A stretch of DNA of 64,000 nucleotides from Kineosporiaceae bacterium SCSIO 59966 (lineage in GTDB: Bacteria; Actinomycetota; Actinomycetes; Actinomycetales; SCSIO-59966), in contig CP052876.1 in the NCBI GenBank assembly GCA_020881835.1, positions 1,240,001 to 1,304,000 on the forward strand, given 5' to 3'. The position numbers and the translations under genes were made by a program. Positions 39,250 to 55,968 of this stretch are shown here, one piece after another (the stretch's first letter is position 1; each line of letters opens with the position of its first letter). Below the pieces are notes generated by a model. That model was not told the origin of the DNA and did no database searches. It saw only the letters and a list, made by a program, of their open reading frames with translations.

Positions 39250-40569
39250 ATGACGACACGGATAGTGAGCAAGGCGGCGCTGCTGCGCACAGCCGTGCTG
39301 CTCGTGACCGCGCTGGCGCTCGTGCTCTGGGCCGCGATGCCCGCGCTCGCGAACGGCAACGGCAACGGCAGGGACGGCGCGCCGGGGCAGGAGAAGAAGG
39401 CCGCCGAGGTGAGCGCGCCTCCAGGTAGTGGCAAGTCCGGTGGGGTGGGTAAGCCGGCTGCGGCGGAGAAGGCCGCTGCCGCCAAGAAGCCGGCTGCGGC
39501 CGGGAACCCCGAGAACTCGGGGAAGTCGGTCACCGCCAGCACGTCGGAGTCGGCGGGGAAGTCCGCGAAGCCCGTGACGTCGCAGAAGACGGCGAAGTCC
39601 AACAAGTCTCCGAAGTCAGACAAGTCCTCGACGTCAGGCAAGTCAGCGAGCCAGGGCGGCAAGTCGAAGGTCGTCTCCGGCGAGAGCGGCAAGCCACAGC
39701 CGAAGTCGAACGCCGACAGGAACAAGGGCGGCGCCAACAACGGCGGTGACTGCGGCGCCTACTGCTCGACGCGGGACGGCACACTGTCTGGCAACGGCCA
39801 GGGCAAGAACGGCATCGAGGCTGGGTCGAAGGGCCGCGCCGACAACAAGAACCCCAAGGGCCAGCGCCCGAACGCTGCGAGCGACGGCAACAACGGCTAC
39901 GAGTGCGACGGCAACAACGGCATCGCCAAGGGCAACCCTGCGCACTCCGGGTGCACGGCGTCGGATGACAACCCGCCTGGTGAGAACCCGCCTGGTGAGA
40001 ACCCGCCTGGTGAGAACCCGCCTGGTGAGAACCCGCCTGGTGAGAACCCGCCTGGTGAGAACCCGCCTGGTGAGAACCCGCCTGGTGAGAACCCGCCTGG
40101 TGAGAACCCGCCTGGTGAGAACCCGCCTGGTGAGAACCCGCCTGGTGAGAACCCGCCTGGTGAGAACCCGCCTGGTGAGAACCCGCCTGGTGAGAACCCG
40201 CCTGGTGAGAACCCGCCTGGTGAGAACCCGCCTGGTGAGAACCCGCCTGGTGAGAACCCGCCTGGTGAGAACCCGCCTGGTGACAACCCCGACGAGTCCG
40301 TCGACGTGCTGCCAGTGGTCATCGAGGGCCCAAGCACCCCGCCAGGTAGTGCCGTCCCCCCCACTGAAACCGAGTCGGGGACCTCTGATCAGAACGACGA
40401 CGTCGCCGTCCTCGGGACGAAGTTCCCGGCGACTGCTGCGTGGGCTGGTCTGGACGGACCGCTGCCGTTCACGGGCGCGTCCGGCGTCCAGGCGCTGCTG
40501 GCAGCTGGCCTGCTGCTCATCCTGACCGGCGGGACGTTCCTGGCGGTCCGCCGGCGGCGCACCGCCTGA
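39250..40569 (+). CDS. LPXTG cell-wall-anchored repeat protein
   Basis: 439 residues. Signal peptide (VLLVTALALVLWAAMPALA, about residues 15-33), a Lys/Ser/Ala-rich stretch, a Gly/Asn-rich block with four Cys (GGDCGAYCS, YECDG, SGCTA), 21 tandem NPPGE/D pentapeptides (residues about 241-345), a Ser/Thr linker and a C-terminal sorting signal LPFTGASG, hydrophobic helix and RRRRTA tail. Sortase should link it to peptidoglycan, with the Pro-rich repeat acting as a stalk. The ligand is unknown. It lies just after the pilus locus; a functional link is only positional. Confidence 0.85.
   Translation: MTTRIVSKAALLRTAVLLVTALALVLWAAMPALANGNGNGRDGAPGQEKKAAEVSAPPGSGKSGGVGKPAAAEKAAAAKKPAAAGNPENSGKSVTASTSESAGKSAKPVTSQKTAKSNKSPKSDKSSTSGKSASQGGKSKVVSGESGKPQPKSNADRNKGGANNGGDCGAYCSTRDGTLSGNGQGKNGIEAGSKGRADNKNPKGQRPNAASDGNNGYECDGNNGIAKGNPAHSGCTASDDNPPGENPPGENPPGENPPGENPPGENPPGENPPGENPPGENPPGENPPGENPPGENPPGENPPGENPPGENPPGENPPGENPPGENPPGENPPGENPPGENPPGDNPDESVDVLPVVIEGPSTPPGSAVPPTETESGTSDQNDDVAVLGTKFPATAAWAGLDGPLPFTGASGVQALLAAGLLLILTGGTFLAVRRRRTA
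39970..40284 (+). repeat. 21 tandem 15-bp repeats (NPPGE)
   Basis: Unit AACCCGCCTGGTGAG is repeated 21 times in frame with no base differences except GAC for GAG in the last unit. The perfect DNA identity points to recent slippage expansion, and the copy number is likely to vary between strains. Confidence 0.97.
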
Positions 40570-40639: not shown

Positions 40640-41845
40640 ATGCTTCGTTGGCTCACCGCTGGGGAGTCCCACGGCCCGGCGCTGGTCGGCGTCCTCGAGG
40701 GGCTGCCCGCCGGCGTCCGGATCACCACTGACGACGTCCAGGCCGCCTTGGCCCGGCGCCGGCTCGGCTACGGCCGCGGCGCCCGGATGTCGTTCGAGCA
40801 GGACGCCGTCCGGATCCTCGGCGGCGTCCGGCACGGGCGCACCCTGGGCGGCCCGGTCGCCATCGAGGTCGCCAACACCGAGTGGCCCAAGTGGGAGACG
40901 GTGATGTCCGCCGACCCGGTGCCCGACGACGTCCTGGCCGGGCAGGCCCGCAACGCCCCGCTGACCCGCCCCCGCCCCGGGCACGCCGACCTCGTCGGGA
41001 TGCAGAAGTACGGCTTCGACGACGCCCGCCCCGTGCTCGAGCGCGCCAGCGCCCGGGAGACCGCCGCCCGCGTCGCGCTCGGCGCCGTCGCCGCCGCCTT
41101 CCTGCGGGACGCGCTTGGGGCCGGCCTGGTCAGCCACACCGTCGCCATCGGTCCGGTCGGCGTCCCGGACGACGCCGAGCTGCCCACCCCGGACGACGTC
41201 GCGGCCCTCGACGCCGACCCGGTGCGGTGCCACGACAGCGAGACGAGCGCCGCGATGGTCGCCGAGATCGACGCCTGCCGGCGCGCCGGGGACACCCTCG
41301 GCGGCGTCGTCGAGGTTCTGGCCTACGGCGTGCCGCCCGGCCTGGGCAGCCACGTCCACTGGGACCGGCGGCTCGACTCGCGGCTCGCCGGGGCGCTCAT
41401 GGGCGTGCAGGCCATCAAGGGCGTCGAGATCGGCGACGGGTTCCGGACGGCGGGGCGGCGCGGGTCGGCCGCCCACGACGAGATCGAGCACGGGCCGGAC
41501 GGGACGCTGCGCCGGCGCACCGGGCGAGCCGGCGGCCTCGAGGGCGGCATGACCACCGGGGGAGTGCTGCGCGTGCGGGCGGCGATGAAGCCGATCTCGA
41601 CCGTGCCGCGAGCGCTGGACACCGTCGACGTCGCCACCGGCGAGCCGGCCGTCGCCATCAACCAGCGCTCCGACGTCTGCGCGGTGCCCGCTGCGGGCGT
41701 CGTCGCCGAGGCGATGGTCGCGCTGGTCCTGGCCGACGCCGCACTGGAGAAGCTCGGCGGTGACTCCGTGGCCGAGGTCCGGCGCAACCTCGAGGGCTAC
41801 CTCGCCGCGATTCCCGAGCTGATGAGGTCCGGCAGCGTAGGGTAG
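40640..41845 (+). CDS. aroC: Chorismate synthase
   Basis: 401-residue FMN-dependent enzyme converting EPSP to chorismate, the last shikimate step. The three family signatures are visible: [18 protein letters not shown] near residue 8, [13 protein letters not shown] around residues 45-58, and the C-terminal [42 protein letters not shown] is also conserved. Length is normal for actinobacteria. It starts the main aro cluster after the surface-protein gene. Confidence 0.97.
41838..41843 (+). promoter_or_regulatory. Candidate -10 before Uma2-like gene
   Basis: TAGGGT overlaps the end of aroC, 7 bases before the GTG of the Uma2-like gene. It would give a leaderless transcript that could also drive the downstream aroK paralogue. 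Confidence 0.4.
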
Positions 41846-41850
41846 TCGCC

Positions 41851-42228
41851 GTGGCCGTGCAGCCGGTGTTCGAGCGGGGCTTCCCGAGCGACCGTCCGCT
41901 GTCGTGGGAGGACCTGCAGGGCATTCCCGACGACCGCTACGCGGGACACGAGATCGTGGAGGGGGAGCTCATCGTGTCTCCGGTGCCGGACAGCAGGCAT
42001 CAGTCGTGCGTCCTGTCGCTCGCCGCGCTGCTCAAGGCGGCGTGCCCGCCGGACCTCAAGGTGTTCGTGGCCCCCTACGACTACGTGCCGCGCCCCGGGT
42101 ACTCGCTGCAGCCCGACGTCCTTGTCGCCCGCCGCAGCGAGGTAGGCTCGGCCATCGGTTCGCAGGAGTGGACAGCCACCGAACCGTTCCCGGTGGCTGT
42201 CGTACCGTCCGAGCTGCTCGACGAGTGA
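41851..42228 (+). pseudogene. Truncated Uma2-family endonuclease-like gene
   Basis: 125 residues with the N-terminal part of the Uma2 fold: LSWEDLQGIPDDRYAGHEIVEGELIVSP, HQSCVLSLAALLKAACPPDL and the first catalytic Asp in YSLQPDVLVARR. The family usually runs to about 185-195 residues, and the second half with the E-x-K site (EVxSPS...) is missing; the sequence turns to unrelated residues and stops inside the start of the aroK-like gene (GTGA overlap). It is likely a remnant, although a small folded product cannot be excluded. Confidence 0.65.
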
Positions 42229-42716
42229 GTCCCCGAGTCATCCTCGTCGCCCCTCCGGGTGTTGACGTGGACGCGATCGCCGACGAGCTCGGCCGGATGC
42301 TCGACCTGCCTGTGCGGTCGACCGACCGGGACGTCGAGGAGCGTGCGGCTGCGACCGTTGCCGAGATCTTCGTGGAGAAGGGCGAGTCGACGTTCCGCGA
42401 GCTCGAGAGGCAGGCGGTCGTCACCGCGCTCGACGAGCACGACGGCGTCCTCGTCCTCGGCGGTGGCGCCGTCATGGACCCGCTCACCGAGGCGGACCTC
42501 GCCGGCGAGCGGGTCGTGTTCCTCGACGTGTCGATCTCGCAGGCCGCGCGGACGCTCGGGTTCACCGGCCCCACGACGGTCATCAACCCGCGCGCGCAGT
42601 GGCTGCGGATGATGGAGACGCGACGGCCGGTGTACCAGCGGGTCGCGGACGTCGTCGTCACGGTCGACGGCAAGGCGCCCAGCGAGGTGGTGAAGGAGAT
42701 CCTCGCCGCCCTCTGA
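42225..42716 (+). CDS. Shikimate kinase paralogue lacking the P-loop
   Basis: 163 residues. The fold is clearly that of AroK: STDRDVEERAAATVAEIFVEKGE (shikimate Asp), ESTFRELERQAV (Arg), VLVLGGGAVMDP (GGG motif) and ETRRPVYQRVADVVVTVDG (lid and adenine site). The Walker A motif expected at residues 8-16 is replaced by VAPPGVDVDAIA, with no Lys or Ser/Thr, so ATP phosphorylation by the normal route is unlikely. A complete aroK follows 240 bp downstream. A regulatory or shikimate-binding role is possible. It overlaps the truncated Uma2-like gene. Confidence 0.8.
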   Translation: MSPRVILVAPPGVDVDAIADELGRMLDLPVRSTDRDVEERAAATVAEIFVEKGESTFRELERQAVVTALDEHDGVLVLGGGAVMDPLTEADLAGERVVFLDVSISQAARTLGFTGPTTVINPRAQWLRMMETRRPVYQRVADVVVTVDGKAPSEVVKEILAAL

Positions 42717-42791
42717 CCCGCGACGACCCTCTCTACCGCCCGACCCCCCGCCCGACCCCCAACCCCCCGCCCACACCTCCAAACCCCCTCC

Positions 42792-42924
42792 GTGATCATG
42801 CAATCCCGCCACCCTGCACCCTCCCGCCCGACCCCTCACCCCCTCGGTGATCATGCAATCCCGCCACCCTGCACTCGCCCGCCCGACCCGCAACCCCTCT
42901 CGGTGATCATGCAATCCCGCCACC
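42792..42924 (+). repeat. Three 22-bp dispersed repeats, forward
   Basis: Copies at 42792-42813, 42847-42868 and 42903-42924 are identical: GTGATCATGCAATCCCGCCA followed by CC. They are spaced 55-56 bp apart and separated by C-rich spacer, in the 230-bp gap between the two shikimate kinase genes. Confidence 0.92.
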
Positions 42925-42942
42925 CTCCGCGGCGCCGCGCCG

Positions 42943-42948
42943 TACGGT
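42943..42948 (+). promoter_or_regulatory. Candidate -10 of aroK (leaderless)
   Basis: TACGGT, 7 bases, then GTG (42956). The overlapping GTG at 42947 would lie inside the promoter, so this box favours the later start. Confidence 0.45.
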
Positions 42949-42955
42949 GGCGGCC

Positions 42956-43441
42956 GTGATCGTGATCGTCGGGTTCATGGGCGCGGGCAAGTCCACCGTC
43001 GGCCGACGGCTGGCCCAGCGGATCGACGTCCCGTTCGTGGACAGCGACGACGAGATCGTCGCCCGCTCTGGGCGTGCCATCGCGGACGTGTTTCGCCAGG
43101 ACGGGGAACCGGTCTTCCGGGCGCTGGAGCAGTCGGTGATCCTCGATCTCCTCACCGGTGCGGAGGCGGTCGTCGCGCTCGGTGGCGGCGCGGTCGAGAC
43201 GCCGGCGGTGCGCGAGGCTCTCACCGGGCACGACGTCGTGTACCTCGCTGTGACCCTGGAGCAGGCCCTGGTCCGCGTGGGCGGGGACGGCCAGCGGCCG
43301 GTGCTCGATGATCCCGTTCTGCCACAACGGTTCTCGGCACGAGTTCCGCTCTATGAACAGGTGGCCACCGTGACCCTGGACGCCGGCGACGCGACCCCTG
43401 ACGGCCTTGTCGACCAGGTCATCGCGCGGCTGCGTCTGTAA
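42956..43441 (+). CDS. aroK: Shikimate kinase
   Basis: 161 residues, the functional kinase of the pair. It phosphorylates shikimate with ATP. P-loop GFMGAGKST at residues 6-14, VDSDDEIVARSGRAIADVF (shikimate Asp), EPVFRALEQ (Arg), VVALGGGAVETP, and RVPLYEQVATVTLDA at the end. The lid residues GDGQRPVL are present. Start at 42956 is preferred from the promoter spacing; 42947 would add three residues. The gene is set apart by repeat-filled spacers on both sides. Confidence 0.92.
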   Translation: MIVIVGFMGAGKSTVGRRLAQRIDVPFVDSDDEIVARSGRAIADVFRQDGEPVFRALEQSVILDLLTGAEAVVALGGGAVETPAVREALTGHDVVYLAVTLEQALVRVGGDGQRPVLDDPVLPQRFSARVPLYEQVATVTLDAGDATPDGLVDQVIARLRL

Positions 43442-43486
43442 GAACGACCGGGCGACAGGGGGCCCGGGCGGCGCTGGCCCGGGTCA

Positions 43487-43545
43487 CAGAATGCTGGATT
43501 CGGCACAGGTTTGCCGGCGTGTCGCGCCTCCAACTCAGCATTCTG
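43487..43545 (+). repeat. 59-bp palindromic repeat, copy E
   Basis: Begins CAGAATGCTG and ends CAGCATTCTG, with inner GCCGGCGTGTCGCGCC. It stands alone between aroK and aroB, 27 bp before the inverted 22-bp repeats. Confidence 0.88.
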
Positions 43546-43571
43546 CGGGCAGGTGTGGGGCGGGCGCGGGG

Positions 43572-44795
<1,224 letters not shown>

Positions 44796-45415: not shown

Positions 45416-45439
45416 GCCCGAAGGCCCGGTGTCGATCAG

Positions 45440-45445
45440 TACCCT
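45440..45445 (+). promoter_or_regulatory. Candidate -10 of aroQ (leaderless)
   Basis: TACCCT, 7 bases, then the ATG of aroQ at 45453. Confidence 0.45.
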
Positions 45446-45452
45446 GCCGCGC

Positions 45453-45914
45453 ATGACGCGGGTGCTGGTCCTCAACGGTCCCAACCTCGGCCGCCTCGGC
45501 TCCCGTGAGCCGGAGGTCTACGGCACCACCACGCACGCCGACCTGGCGGAGCGTTGCCGCAGCGACGGCGAGCGCCTCGGCCTGGACGTGGAGGTGCGTC
45601 AGACCGACGACGAGGCGCAGCTCGTCGGCTGGCTGCACGAGGCCGTCGACACCGGCGCCCACGTCGTCCTCAACCCAGCGGCCTTCACCCACTACTCCTA
45701 CGCCACCCGCGACGCCTGTGCGCAGGTGACCGGCGCCGGGCTCGTGCTCGTCGAGGTGCACCTGTCGAACCCCGCCGCCCGCGAGGAGTTCCGGCACACG
45801 AGCGTGATCGCAGGGGTGGCGACGGGCACCGTCGCCGGTTTCGGCGGCGACTCCTACCGACTGGCGCTGCAGGCGGTCGCTGGCCGGCTTGATCCTGGAC
45901 AGTCAAGCCTTTAG
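45453..45914 (+). CDS. aroQ: Type II 3-dehydroquinate dehydratase
   Basis: 153 residues. [20 protein letters not shown] is the family N-terminal signature; [11 protein letters not shown] includes the active-site lid with the catalytic Arg and Tyr. [16 protein letters not shown] and [18 protein letters not shown] carry the conserved Asn, His and Arg. It forms dodecamers in relatives. The ATG is favoured over an in-frame start at 45429 because of the leaderless -10 and the family start. It completes aroB-aroQ-aroK-aroC in this region. Confidence 0.95.
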
Positions 45915-54758: not shown

Positions 54759-55968
54759 GCGGCGCGGTGCTCGTCCTCGAGGACGGCCGGACGTTCCCCG
54801 GCGAGCCGTACGGCGCCGTCGGCGAGACCGTCGGCGAGGCGGTGTTCTGCACCGCGATGACCGGCTACCAGGAGACCCTCACCGACCCCTCCTACCACCG
54901 GCAGGTCGTCGTCATGACCGCCCCGCACGTCGGCAACACCGGCTGGACCGACGAGGACGACGAGTCCGCCCGGATCTGGGTGGCCGGGTTCGTCGTCCGC
55001 GACCCCGCCCGGCGGGCGTCGTCGTGGCGCTCGCGCCGCGAGCTCGCCGACGAGCTCGCCGACCAGGGCGTGGTGGGGATCCGCGGCGTCGACACCCGGG
55101 CGATCACCCGGCACCTGCGGGAGCGTGGCGCGATGCGGGTCGGGGTGTTCTCCGGCCAGGCGGCGGCGCGCCCGCACGACGAGCTGCTCGAGGTGGTTCG
55201 CTCGGCGCCCGCGATGAGCGGGGCCGACCTCGCCGACGAGGTGACGACCGACGCGGCGTACGTCGTCCCGGCGGTGGGGCCCAAGCGGTTCACGGTCGCC
55301 GCCGTCGACCTCGGCATCAAGGCGATGACCCCGCGGATGCTCGCCGAGCGCGGCGTCGAGGTCCACGTGCTGCCCGCCACCGCGACCCTGGACGACGTCC
55401 TGGTCACCCGACCGGACGGGGTGTTCTTCTCCAACGGCCCCGGGGACCCGGCCGCCGCCACCGACGAGATCGAGCTGCTGCGCGGCGTCCTGGACCGGGG
55501 GGTGCCGTTCTTCGGGATCTGCTACGGCAACCAGCTGCTCGGCCGGGCCCTCGGCCTGGGCACCTACAAGCTGCGCTACGGCCACCGCGGGGTGAACCAG
55601 CCGGTGCTCGACCGGGCCACCGGGCGGGTCGAGGTCACCGCGCACAACCACGGGTTCGCCGTCGACGCGCCGCTCGAGGGCGCGTTCGACACCCCGTTCG
55701 GGCGGGCCGAGGTCAGCCACGTCTGCCTCAACGACGACGTCGTCGAGGGGCTTCGGCTGCTGGACCGGCCGGCGTTCTCGGTGCAGTACCACCCGGAGGC
55801 CGCCGCCGGGCCGCACGACGCCGCCCACCTCTTCGACCGCTTCCTCACCCTCCTCGGTGATCATGCAGTTCCGCCACCCGGCAAGGTGGCGGGATTGCAT
55901 GATCACGGGGGGGAGGGGAGTGGGGTGGCGGGATTGCATGATCACGGGGGAGAGGGGGGTGAGGGCTG

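Follow-up and report, generated by a model that had tools for sequence, protein, structure and literature searches.

Proteins derived from shikimate kinase (SK) that no longer act as kinases are already known in plants, in fungi and among the BzdR-type regulators. The fungal repressors QutR and GaaX are reported to use an SK-derived domain in regulation. Both are multidomain, eukaryotic proteins related to the AROM protein. A 2008 plant study reports that every algal or other microbial sequence it retrieved has the SK consensus, including the RPLL motif (PMC2593004), and in the titles and abstract starts of the open-licence literature searched we found no description of a dead bacterial aroK in an aro cluster.

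Here we analyze such a gene in Kineosporiaceae bacterium SCSIO 59966, in a stretch of 64,000 nucleotides (hereafter the window). The initial annotation had placed two adjacent SK-family genes there, and both match PF01202 (91.8 and 140.7 bits). The first, called pSK below, is almost certainly not a normal ATP-dependent SK, while the second, AroK2, is intact. Our preferred explanation, to which we give a probability of about 0.45, is that pSK is a former AroK which has been retained, without catalytic activity, as a shikimate-binding partner of the kinase that replaced it. The cluster contains the following features.

40640..41845, + strand: aroC, chorismate synthase (PF01264, 378.7 bits)
41851..42228, + strand: Uma2-family ORF between aroC and pSK (PF05685, 34.1 bits)
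42225..42716, + strand: pSK, dead SK of the native type (PF01202, AlphaFold model, motif alignment)
42793..42924, + strand: three copies of the repeat TGATCATGCAATCCCGCCACC between pSK and AroK2 (sequence search)
42947..43441, + strand: AroK2, intact SK of another lineage (PF01202, 140.7 bits; motif check passed)
43575..43639, − strand: two inverted copies of the repeat TGATCATGCAATCCCGCCACC between AroK2 and aroB
43707..44795, + strand: aroB, 3-dehydroquinate synthase (PF01761 and PF24621, scanned as ORF 43620-44792)
45429..45914, + strand: aroQ, type II 3-dehydroquinate dehydratase (PF01220, 169.2 bits)

The genome is a single contig of 3,095,448 bases, and the genome sets searched contained no other genome of the family of this organism and no close relative. 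The Uma2-family ORF is short, covering only positions 1-100 of 172 of its profile, and its stop overlaps the start of pSK, the two sharing GTGA. The 230 bp between pSK and AroK2 hold three copies of the repeat and gave no signal for RNA structure (z -0.44). This 21-bp repeat occurs in 332 exact copies genome-wide (168 forward, 164 reverse; none for the reversed-pattern control) and, among the places listed, is often clustered with 2-4 copies per place; in the window it is found at 42793, 42848 and 42904 (+), at 43575 and 43622 (−), and also at 55858-55944. A promoter and terminator scan of 41700-43800 detected no promoter-like site and one minus-strand terminator-like site (0.3 expected). Just upstream of aroC, positions 39250-40569 encode a protein that matches an LPXTG-type anchor (PF00746, 20.6 bits) and contains a long series of perfect PPGEN repeats.

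pSK is 163 aa long, starting with a GTG at 42225 and ending at 42716, and it begins with V-S-P-R-V, the same start as in the nearest native relative found. Its PF01202 match (cut-off 22.1) spans profile positions 8-157 of 159, and no other domain, HTH included, was detected at E ≤ 0.001 in the 162 aa scanned. The AlphaFold model shows an SK fold with a mean pLDDT of 90.6, its best PDB matches being M. tuberculosis SK, including the shikimate complexes (Foldseek TM about 0.9), and it has no confident lid (pLDDT <50 at residues 116-118). In the numbering of M. tuberculosis SK, which is used throughout, the P-loop site (GxxxxGK(S/T)) reads APPGVDVDA (G9A, G14D, K15V, S/T16D), the Mg2+-side Asp of the DxD motif is lost (D32S), and the lid (RPLL with the catalytic Arg) is lost by R117G and L120T, with Thr-Thr at 119-120 and two codons missing in the region, a gap that makes the alignment there uncertain by 1-2 residues; R110T is a further loss on the ATP/lid side. 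D34, which we take to contact shikimate, is kept together with R58, the GGG motif and R136. Contacts of R58 and R136 with shikimate are described in PMC2593004. Thus the missing P-loop and the retained shikimate-binding Asp34, Arg58 and Arg136 and GGG that had been pointed out in the initial annotation are confirmed, but the lid region, which it listed as retained, is not. Compared with the nearest native gene (59% identical, from G014 of family f15), the P-loop has been replaced by colinear in-frame substitutions, which rules out a compensated frameshift.

At conserved positions, the losses all fall on the ATP/lid side. We compared pSK with 241 intact SKs at the 24 positions where at least 95% of these agree, assigning the positions to the shikimate or the ATP side ourselves on the basis of the roles given in PMC2593004 and of general background on SK. 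In pSK, 9/9 positions of the shikimate side and 5/5 of the others are conserved, but only 2/10 of the ATP/lid side (Fisher's test: 7.1e-4 for shikimate versus ATP, 6.1e-5 for all 14/14 non-ATP positions versus ATP), where the p-values are indicative, positions within one motif not being independent events. The 241 SKs are those passing a check of ten motif positions (14, 15, 16, 32, 34, 58, 80, 81, 117 and 136) in an alignment of 256 distinct SK-like domains from the collected loci, with nested and repeated ones dropped. Since 241 of 256 pass, loss of the P-loop is not usual in the SK family. The 15 failing domains comprise seven dead SKs (of the window, five genomes of genus g26 and G032), G219 with D32E and a changed lid but Arg117 kept, L116 whose domain is cut by a contig end, four SK-like proteins in which the shikimate side is missing (L003, from the window genome, and L107-L109, from f15) and, with decay of the opposite kind, the family f2 copies L064 and L070. 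This is a lenient check, as G956 passes it despite changed P118 and L120. From its sequence, pSK is predicted not to phosphorylate shikimate with ATP. It nevertheless scores above the cut-off of the SK profile, and a metabolic or other model in which it figures as AroK is likely to be mistaken.

AroK2 covers nearly the whole PF01202 model and carries the P-loop GFMGAGKST, DSD, FR, GGG and the lid RPVL. It is the only one of the three PF01202 matches of the genome with the full motif set, the third (C1:1666893-1667339) having a P-loop and lacking FR and GGG. The two neighbours are not a duplicated pair, as the label of tandem shikimate kinases had implied: they are only 29-31% identical and fall into different SK clades, pSK with the native aroK of the order and AroK2 in a separate clade (25 rows, support 100/93), and a tandem duplication is ruled out. 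The AroK2 type is the sole SK match in 11 of 12 sampled genomes of family f14, the twelfth having one further match, and it also occurs in three genomes of genus g23 (family f7), in a few f17 genomes and in G032. An SK match was obtained in 183 of 186 f17 genomes, and among the best 30 loci inspected the AroK2 type was present in the five g26 genomes and in G341, G453 and G519. In G341 the AroK2-type gene lies in a separate cluster with an aroB paralogue and the native aroC-aroK-aroB is intact, so carrying both types is not in itself fatal to the native gene. In all three of these genomes (loci L122, L124 and L125) the AroK2-type SK adjoins a second, divergent aroB paralogue (37.5-41% identical to the window aroB), possibly forming an aro set for a secondary metabolite.

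The aro cluster of the window is itself mosaic, because aroC and aroB take different positions in their trees. The window aroC, which is 78.5-84.6% identical to aroC of five f15 genomes, groups loosely with f15 and f7, and the window aroB belongs to another well-supported half of the aroB tree (99/99). The repeats on both sides of AroK2 may mark the joins of such a mosaic. A joint transfer of AroK2 and aroB is only a possibility, because G006 of family f7 has the same aroB type as the window yet a native-type SK.

The initial annotation had proposed a survey of relatives for the same pair. A scan of 396 genomes of the order gave an SK match in 387, and residues were inspected for 150 rows (30 loci and 120 more). 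SKs without the lid Arg were found in twelve further genomes, making 13 dead copies from four families, R117 being absent in 13/13. Each dead domain lies in one stop-free frame, each dead copy belongs to the aro cluster and is no more than about 2 kb away from aroC or aroB, and a complete SK was found in 12 of the 13 genomes. The P-loop is kept in three other relatives, Cellulomonas aerilata, an uncultured Cellulomonas and an Actinomycetota MAG.

Seven of the dead copies retain the pocket, namely those of the window, of genus g26 (G033, G079, G385, G399 and G400; 5/5 genomes sampled) and of G032 from family f15. All seven have lost R117 and keep D34, F57, R58, E61, GGG and R136; D32 is lost in six and K15 in two, and the P-loop is still present in four of the five g26 copies. 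Fisher's comparison of the shikimate and ATP sides gives p 0.03-0.09 for single g26 copies and is not significant for the G032 copy (p 0.21). In every g26 genome a complete AroK2-type SK comes immediately before the dead SK, both lying between aroC and aroB. In four of the five species the live and dead SKs are fused, sharing a single reading frame of about 330 aa; the start of the fusion overlaps the aroC stop, and the stop of its dead half overlaps an ATG in the aroB frame. In G400 the two SKs are in different frames, and in the window they are not fused either. In G032 the dead SK sits between aroC and aroB, and the AroK2-type gene is on a 4,675-bp contig that might be a contaminant; the 12 other f15 genomes searched all gave strong native SK matches.

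The remaining six were found by scanning 81 genomes of g37, a genus of family f8 (78 with a match), and picking extra or odd SK matches (G908, G954, G951, G922, G911 and G945). K15 and R117 are lost in all six and the pocket is altered, with G80S and F49L in 6/6 and F57L in 5/6; D32, R58 and R136 are kept in all and D34 in five. These copies keep 5-6 of 9 shikimate-side and 3-6 of 10 ATP/lid positions, a difference that is not significant by Fisher's test. Because of these six altered pockets, a shikimate-binding role cannot be general. Five of the six genomes have a complete second SK between the dead SK and aroB, and no second complete SK was found in G951, whose assembly is 81% complete. 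G945, G908 and G954 share the order aroC, dead SK, other genes, live SK, aroB, the dead and live SKs being more than 6 kb apart in G908 and G954. Among the five, a Pfam scan of the intervening genes covered two, showing a type I dehydroquinase in G945, and a shikimate dehydrogenase, a type I dehydroquinase and an MFS transporter in G908. The dehydrogenase, dehydroquinase, transporter and SK of the latter (L342, 7530-11190) resemble an inserted cassette for quinate/shikimate use, from which the displacing SK of g37 may have come.

Other g37 genomes carry two SKs with the native copy in various states: intact in G910, D32E in G947 and G948, the lid changed to RSMA in G956, and both changes in G219. 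G942 and G943 have one SK match each, of the newer type beside aroB, and no native copy was found in them. Across g37 the states form a graded series, from an intact native copy through D32E alone, a changed lid alone and the two changes combined to loss of P-loop and lid and, at the far end, absence of the copy. The lost P-loop motif is near-identical in the window (APPGVDVDAIA) and in G945 (L346, APPGVDVAAVA), though the tree does not group the two copies. Another SK pair with the opposite decay is present in genus g71 of f2 (L354 of G286, L064 and L070), where a complete SK between aroC and aroB is accompanied by an SK-like protein with a P-loop and without FR and GGG, located beyond aroB in L354.

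Dead copies occupy the usual aroK place or lie near it, and the newcomer SK is beside them or elsewhere in the genome; it is therefore well supported that the two SKs are the native aroK (pSK) and its displacer (AroK2) rather than duplicates. Whether the dead copies have a single origin is neither shown nor rejected, the tree tests being compatible with one or several losses. Holding the seven pocket-retaining copies together costs nothing (p-AU 0.513); constraining the window copy with those of g26 gives p-AU 0.456, and with that of G032 p-AU 0.542. The log-likelihood is 18.9 lower when the window copy is joined with the six g37 copies (p-AU 0.18) and 14.4 lower with G945 (p-AU 0.224). One tree joins the window and G032 dead copies at 97/90, a grouping at risk from long branches, which the G032 and G945 copies have.

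We estimated selection between dead copies with a pairwise codon model (GY94, F3x4; 2dlnL against omega 1). Omega was 0.010 (2dlnL 134) for the dead halves of G079/G399, compared with 0.027 for their live halves, 0.109 (2dlnL 65) for the dead halves of G033/G079 and 0.133 (2dlnL 63) for G954/G951, the one usable g37 pair. Several comparisons were saturated and are useless as point values, three with t above 1e7 (G385p/G079p, G908p/G951p, G033k/G079k) and four with t of 6-16 (G385k/G079k, G922p/G911p, G908p/G954p, G922b/G911b). By NG86, the ratio of the dead halves was 0.105 in G079/G399; across the nine remaining g26 pairs it was 0.22-0.51, against 0.14-0.73 in the live halves; the dead half was below the live half in 9 of 10 pairs, the exception being G079/G033 (0.396 vs 0.372). 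The common ancestor of each compared pair was presumably already dead, because both members lack R117 and share further losses. The low omega argues against free decay in g26 and g37. As for the window pSK, its frame is intact with a third-position GC of 0.94, and outside the ATP and lid segments its mean identity to seven reference SKs is 51.8% versus 53.2-59.5% for five f15 SKs, so that it is somewhat more diverged than its kin, a mild acceleration. Selection was measured in the relatives and is presumed for the window pSK itself.

The dead SKs are probably kept for another job. The initial annotation had suggested selection for something other than kinase activity, such as sensing shikimate or pairing with AroK, and had named relaxed rates and lost binding residues in relatives as signs of a decaying duplicate. 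The suggestion is strengthened by dead SKs recurring beside live ones, by the fusions in g26, by omega well below 1 in two genera and by the 9/9 shikimate-side positions of pSK, and weakened by the lost lid and by the six altered pockets of g37; of the two signs, then, changed binding residues do appear there, but a relaxed rate does not in the g26 and g37 pairs compared. A slow decay would mean that AroK2 supplies the activity while the native aroK drifts, catalytic positions going first and the fold persisting as the displacement is recent. The graded losses and eroded pockets of g37, with the native copy not found in G942 and G943, the long branches of the G032 and G945 copies and the extra divergence of pSK are what such drift would leave behind. 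We nevertheless consider it rather doubtful, as it does not sit easily with an omega far below 1 in pairs of dead copies whose losses are mostly the same, with 13 stop-free domains, with a fusion retained in four species, or with a pSK that keeps all 14 conserved non-ATP positions and only 2 of 10 ATP/lid ones at a high third-position GC.

If constraint is accepted, it need not come from shikimate. The fungal AROM protein is a fused assembly of aro enzymes, and a dead SK might likewise be kept for contacts with AroC, AroB or AroK2, or for translation of overlapping genes, the pocket surviving as part of the fold. The constant place in the aro cluster, the start and stop overlaps in the window and g26, and the low omega of the usable g37 pair despite its altered pocket agree with this, and in g37 the constraint on a dead SK may come from scaffolding or from another ligand. 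As an account of pSK we find it unlikely, because the shikimate-contacting D34, R58 and R136 are kept in all seven copies of the window, g26 and G032, and translational coupling alone does not predict a low omega. Highly improbable, finally, is that pSK has remained an enzyme for shikimate or a related compound, using a different phosphate donor or catalysing a different reaction: the pocket positions are intact in the same seven copies and four of five g26 copies have a P-loop, but in the window pSK the P-loop, D32, R110 and lid Arg are all missing at once, no replacement is seen in the sequence, and its model has no confident lid.

We therefore return to pSK as a retained shikimate-binding partner of AroK2. 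The ancestral aroK of an actinobacterial aroC-aroK-aroB cluster would have been the first gene; AroK2, from the other lineage, would have settled beside it and taken over catalysis; and the old AroK would then have given up binding ATP and transferring phosphate, as its P-loop, Mg2+ Asp and lid Arg disappeared, and been retained as a folded protein with a shikimate pocket. Its most likely job would be that of a non-catalytic shikimate-binding partner of aro enzymes, AroK2 first; AroK is the obvious candidate because a dead SK is fused to a live one in g26. Having no ATP to close its cycle, pSK would remain in the form it takes with shikimate bound, and it could modulate the live kinase or stabilise it as the shikimate level changes. 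Shikimate binding, contact with AroK2 and a regulatory effect are each putative. A precedent is a synthetic SK chimera: inactivated by the exchange of a single Asp, it reacts to shikimate also when ATP-Mg2+ is present, which the active chimera does not, and its authors explain this by the inactive SK domain staying in a loaded-like shape (PMC3602430). By analogy, a natural SK without ATP binding but with its pocket would be expected to behave like the inactive chimera. More tentatively, and on balance we doubt it, there may be a recurrent class of shikimate-binding pseudokinases, in which the order repeatedly displaces aroK and the retired enzyme becomes a shikimate-sensing subunit gating the live one, made permanent as a fusion in one genus. 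If true, it would provide a feedback element of the aromatic pathway driven by shikimate itself. Should the dead SKs bind shikimate, they would also offer a direct way of testing whether the enzymes of a pathway turn into regulators once a newcomer has taken over catalysis.

Compared with M. tuberculosis SK (AroK, PF01202), pSK is alike in predicted fold, place in the aro cluster and shikimate-side residues and differs in lacking the P-loop, the Mg2+ Asp and the lid Arg. The plant proteins SKL1 and SKL2 are similarly derived from SK, without SK activity and long retained, and SKL1 has lost the lid Arg as pSK has; however, according to PMC2593004, SKL1 largely keeps its ATP/Mg2+ side and has lost a shikimate-proximal Arg, the reverse of the pSK pattern, and SKL2 carries a CS domain, both being plant genes. 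BzdR-type regulators also contain an SK domain turned ligand-responsive with no detectable SK activity, but PMC3602430 describes them as having an HTH domain, keeping Walker A and sensing benzoyl-CoA, whereas pSK is a single domain inside an aro cluster. What is unusual in the dead SKs is this bacterial aro-cluster setting, the keeping of the shikimate rather than the ATP side, and the fusion to a live SK. Provided that shikimate does bind to them, the dead SKs would be a natural version of the hand-built inactive SK sensor described in PMC3602430.
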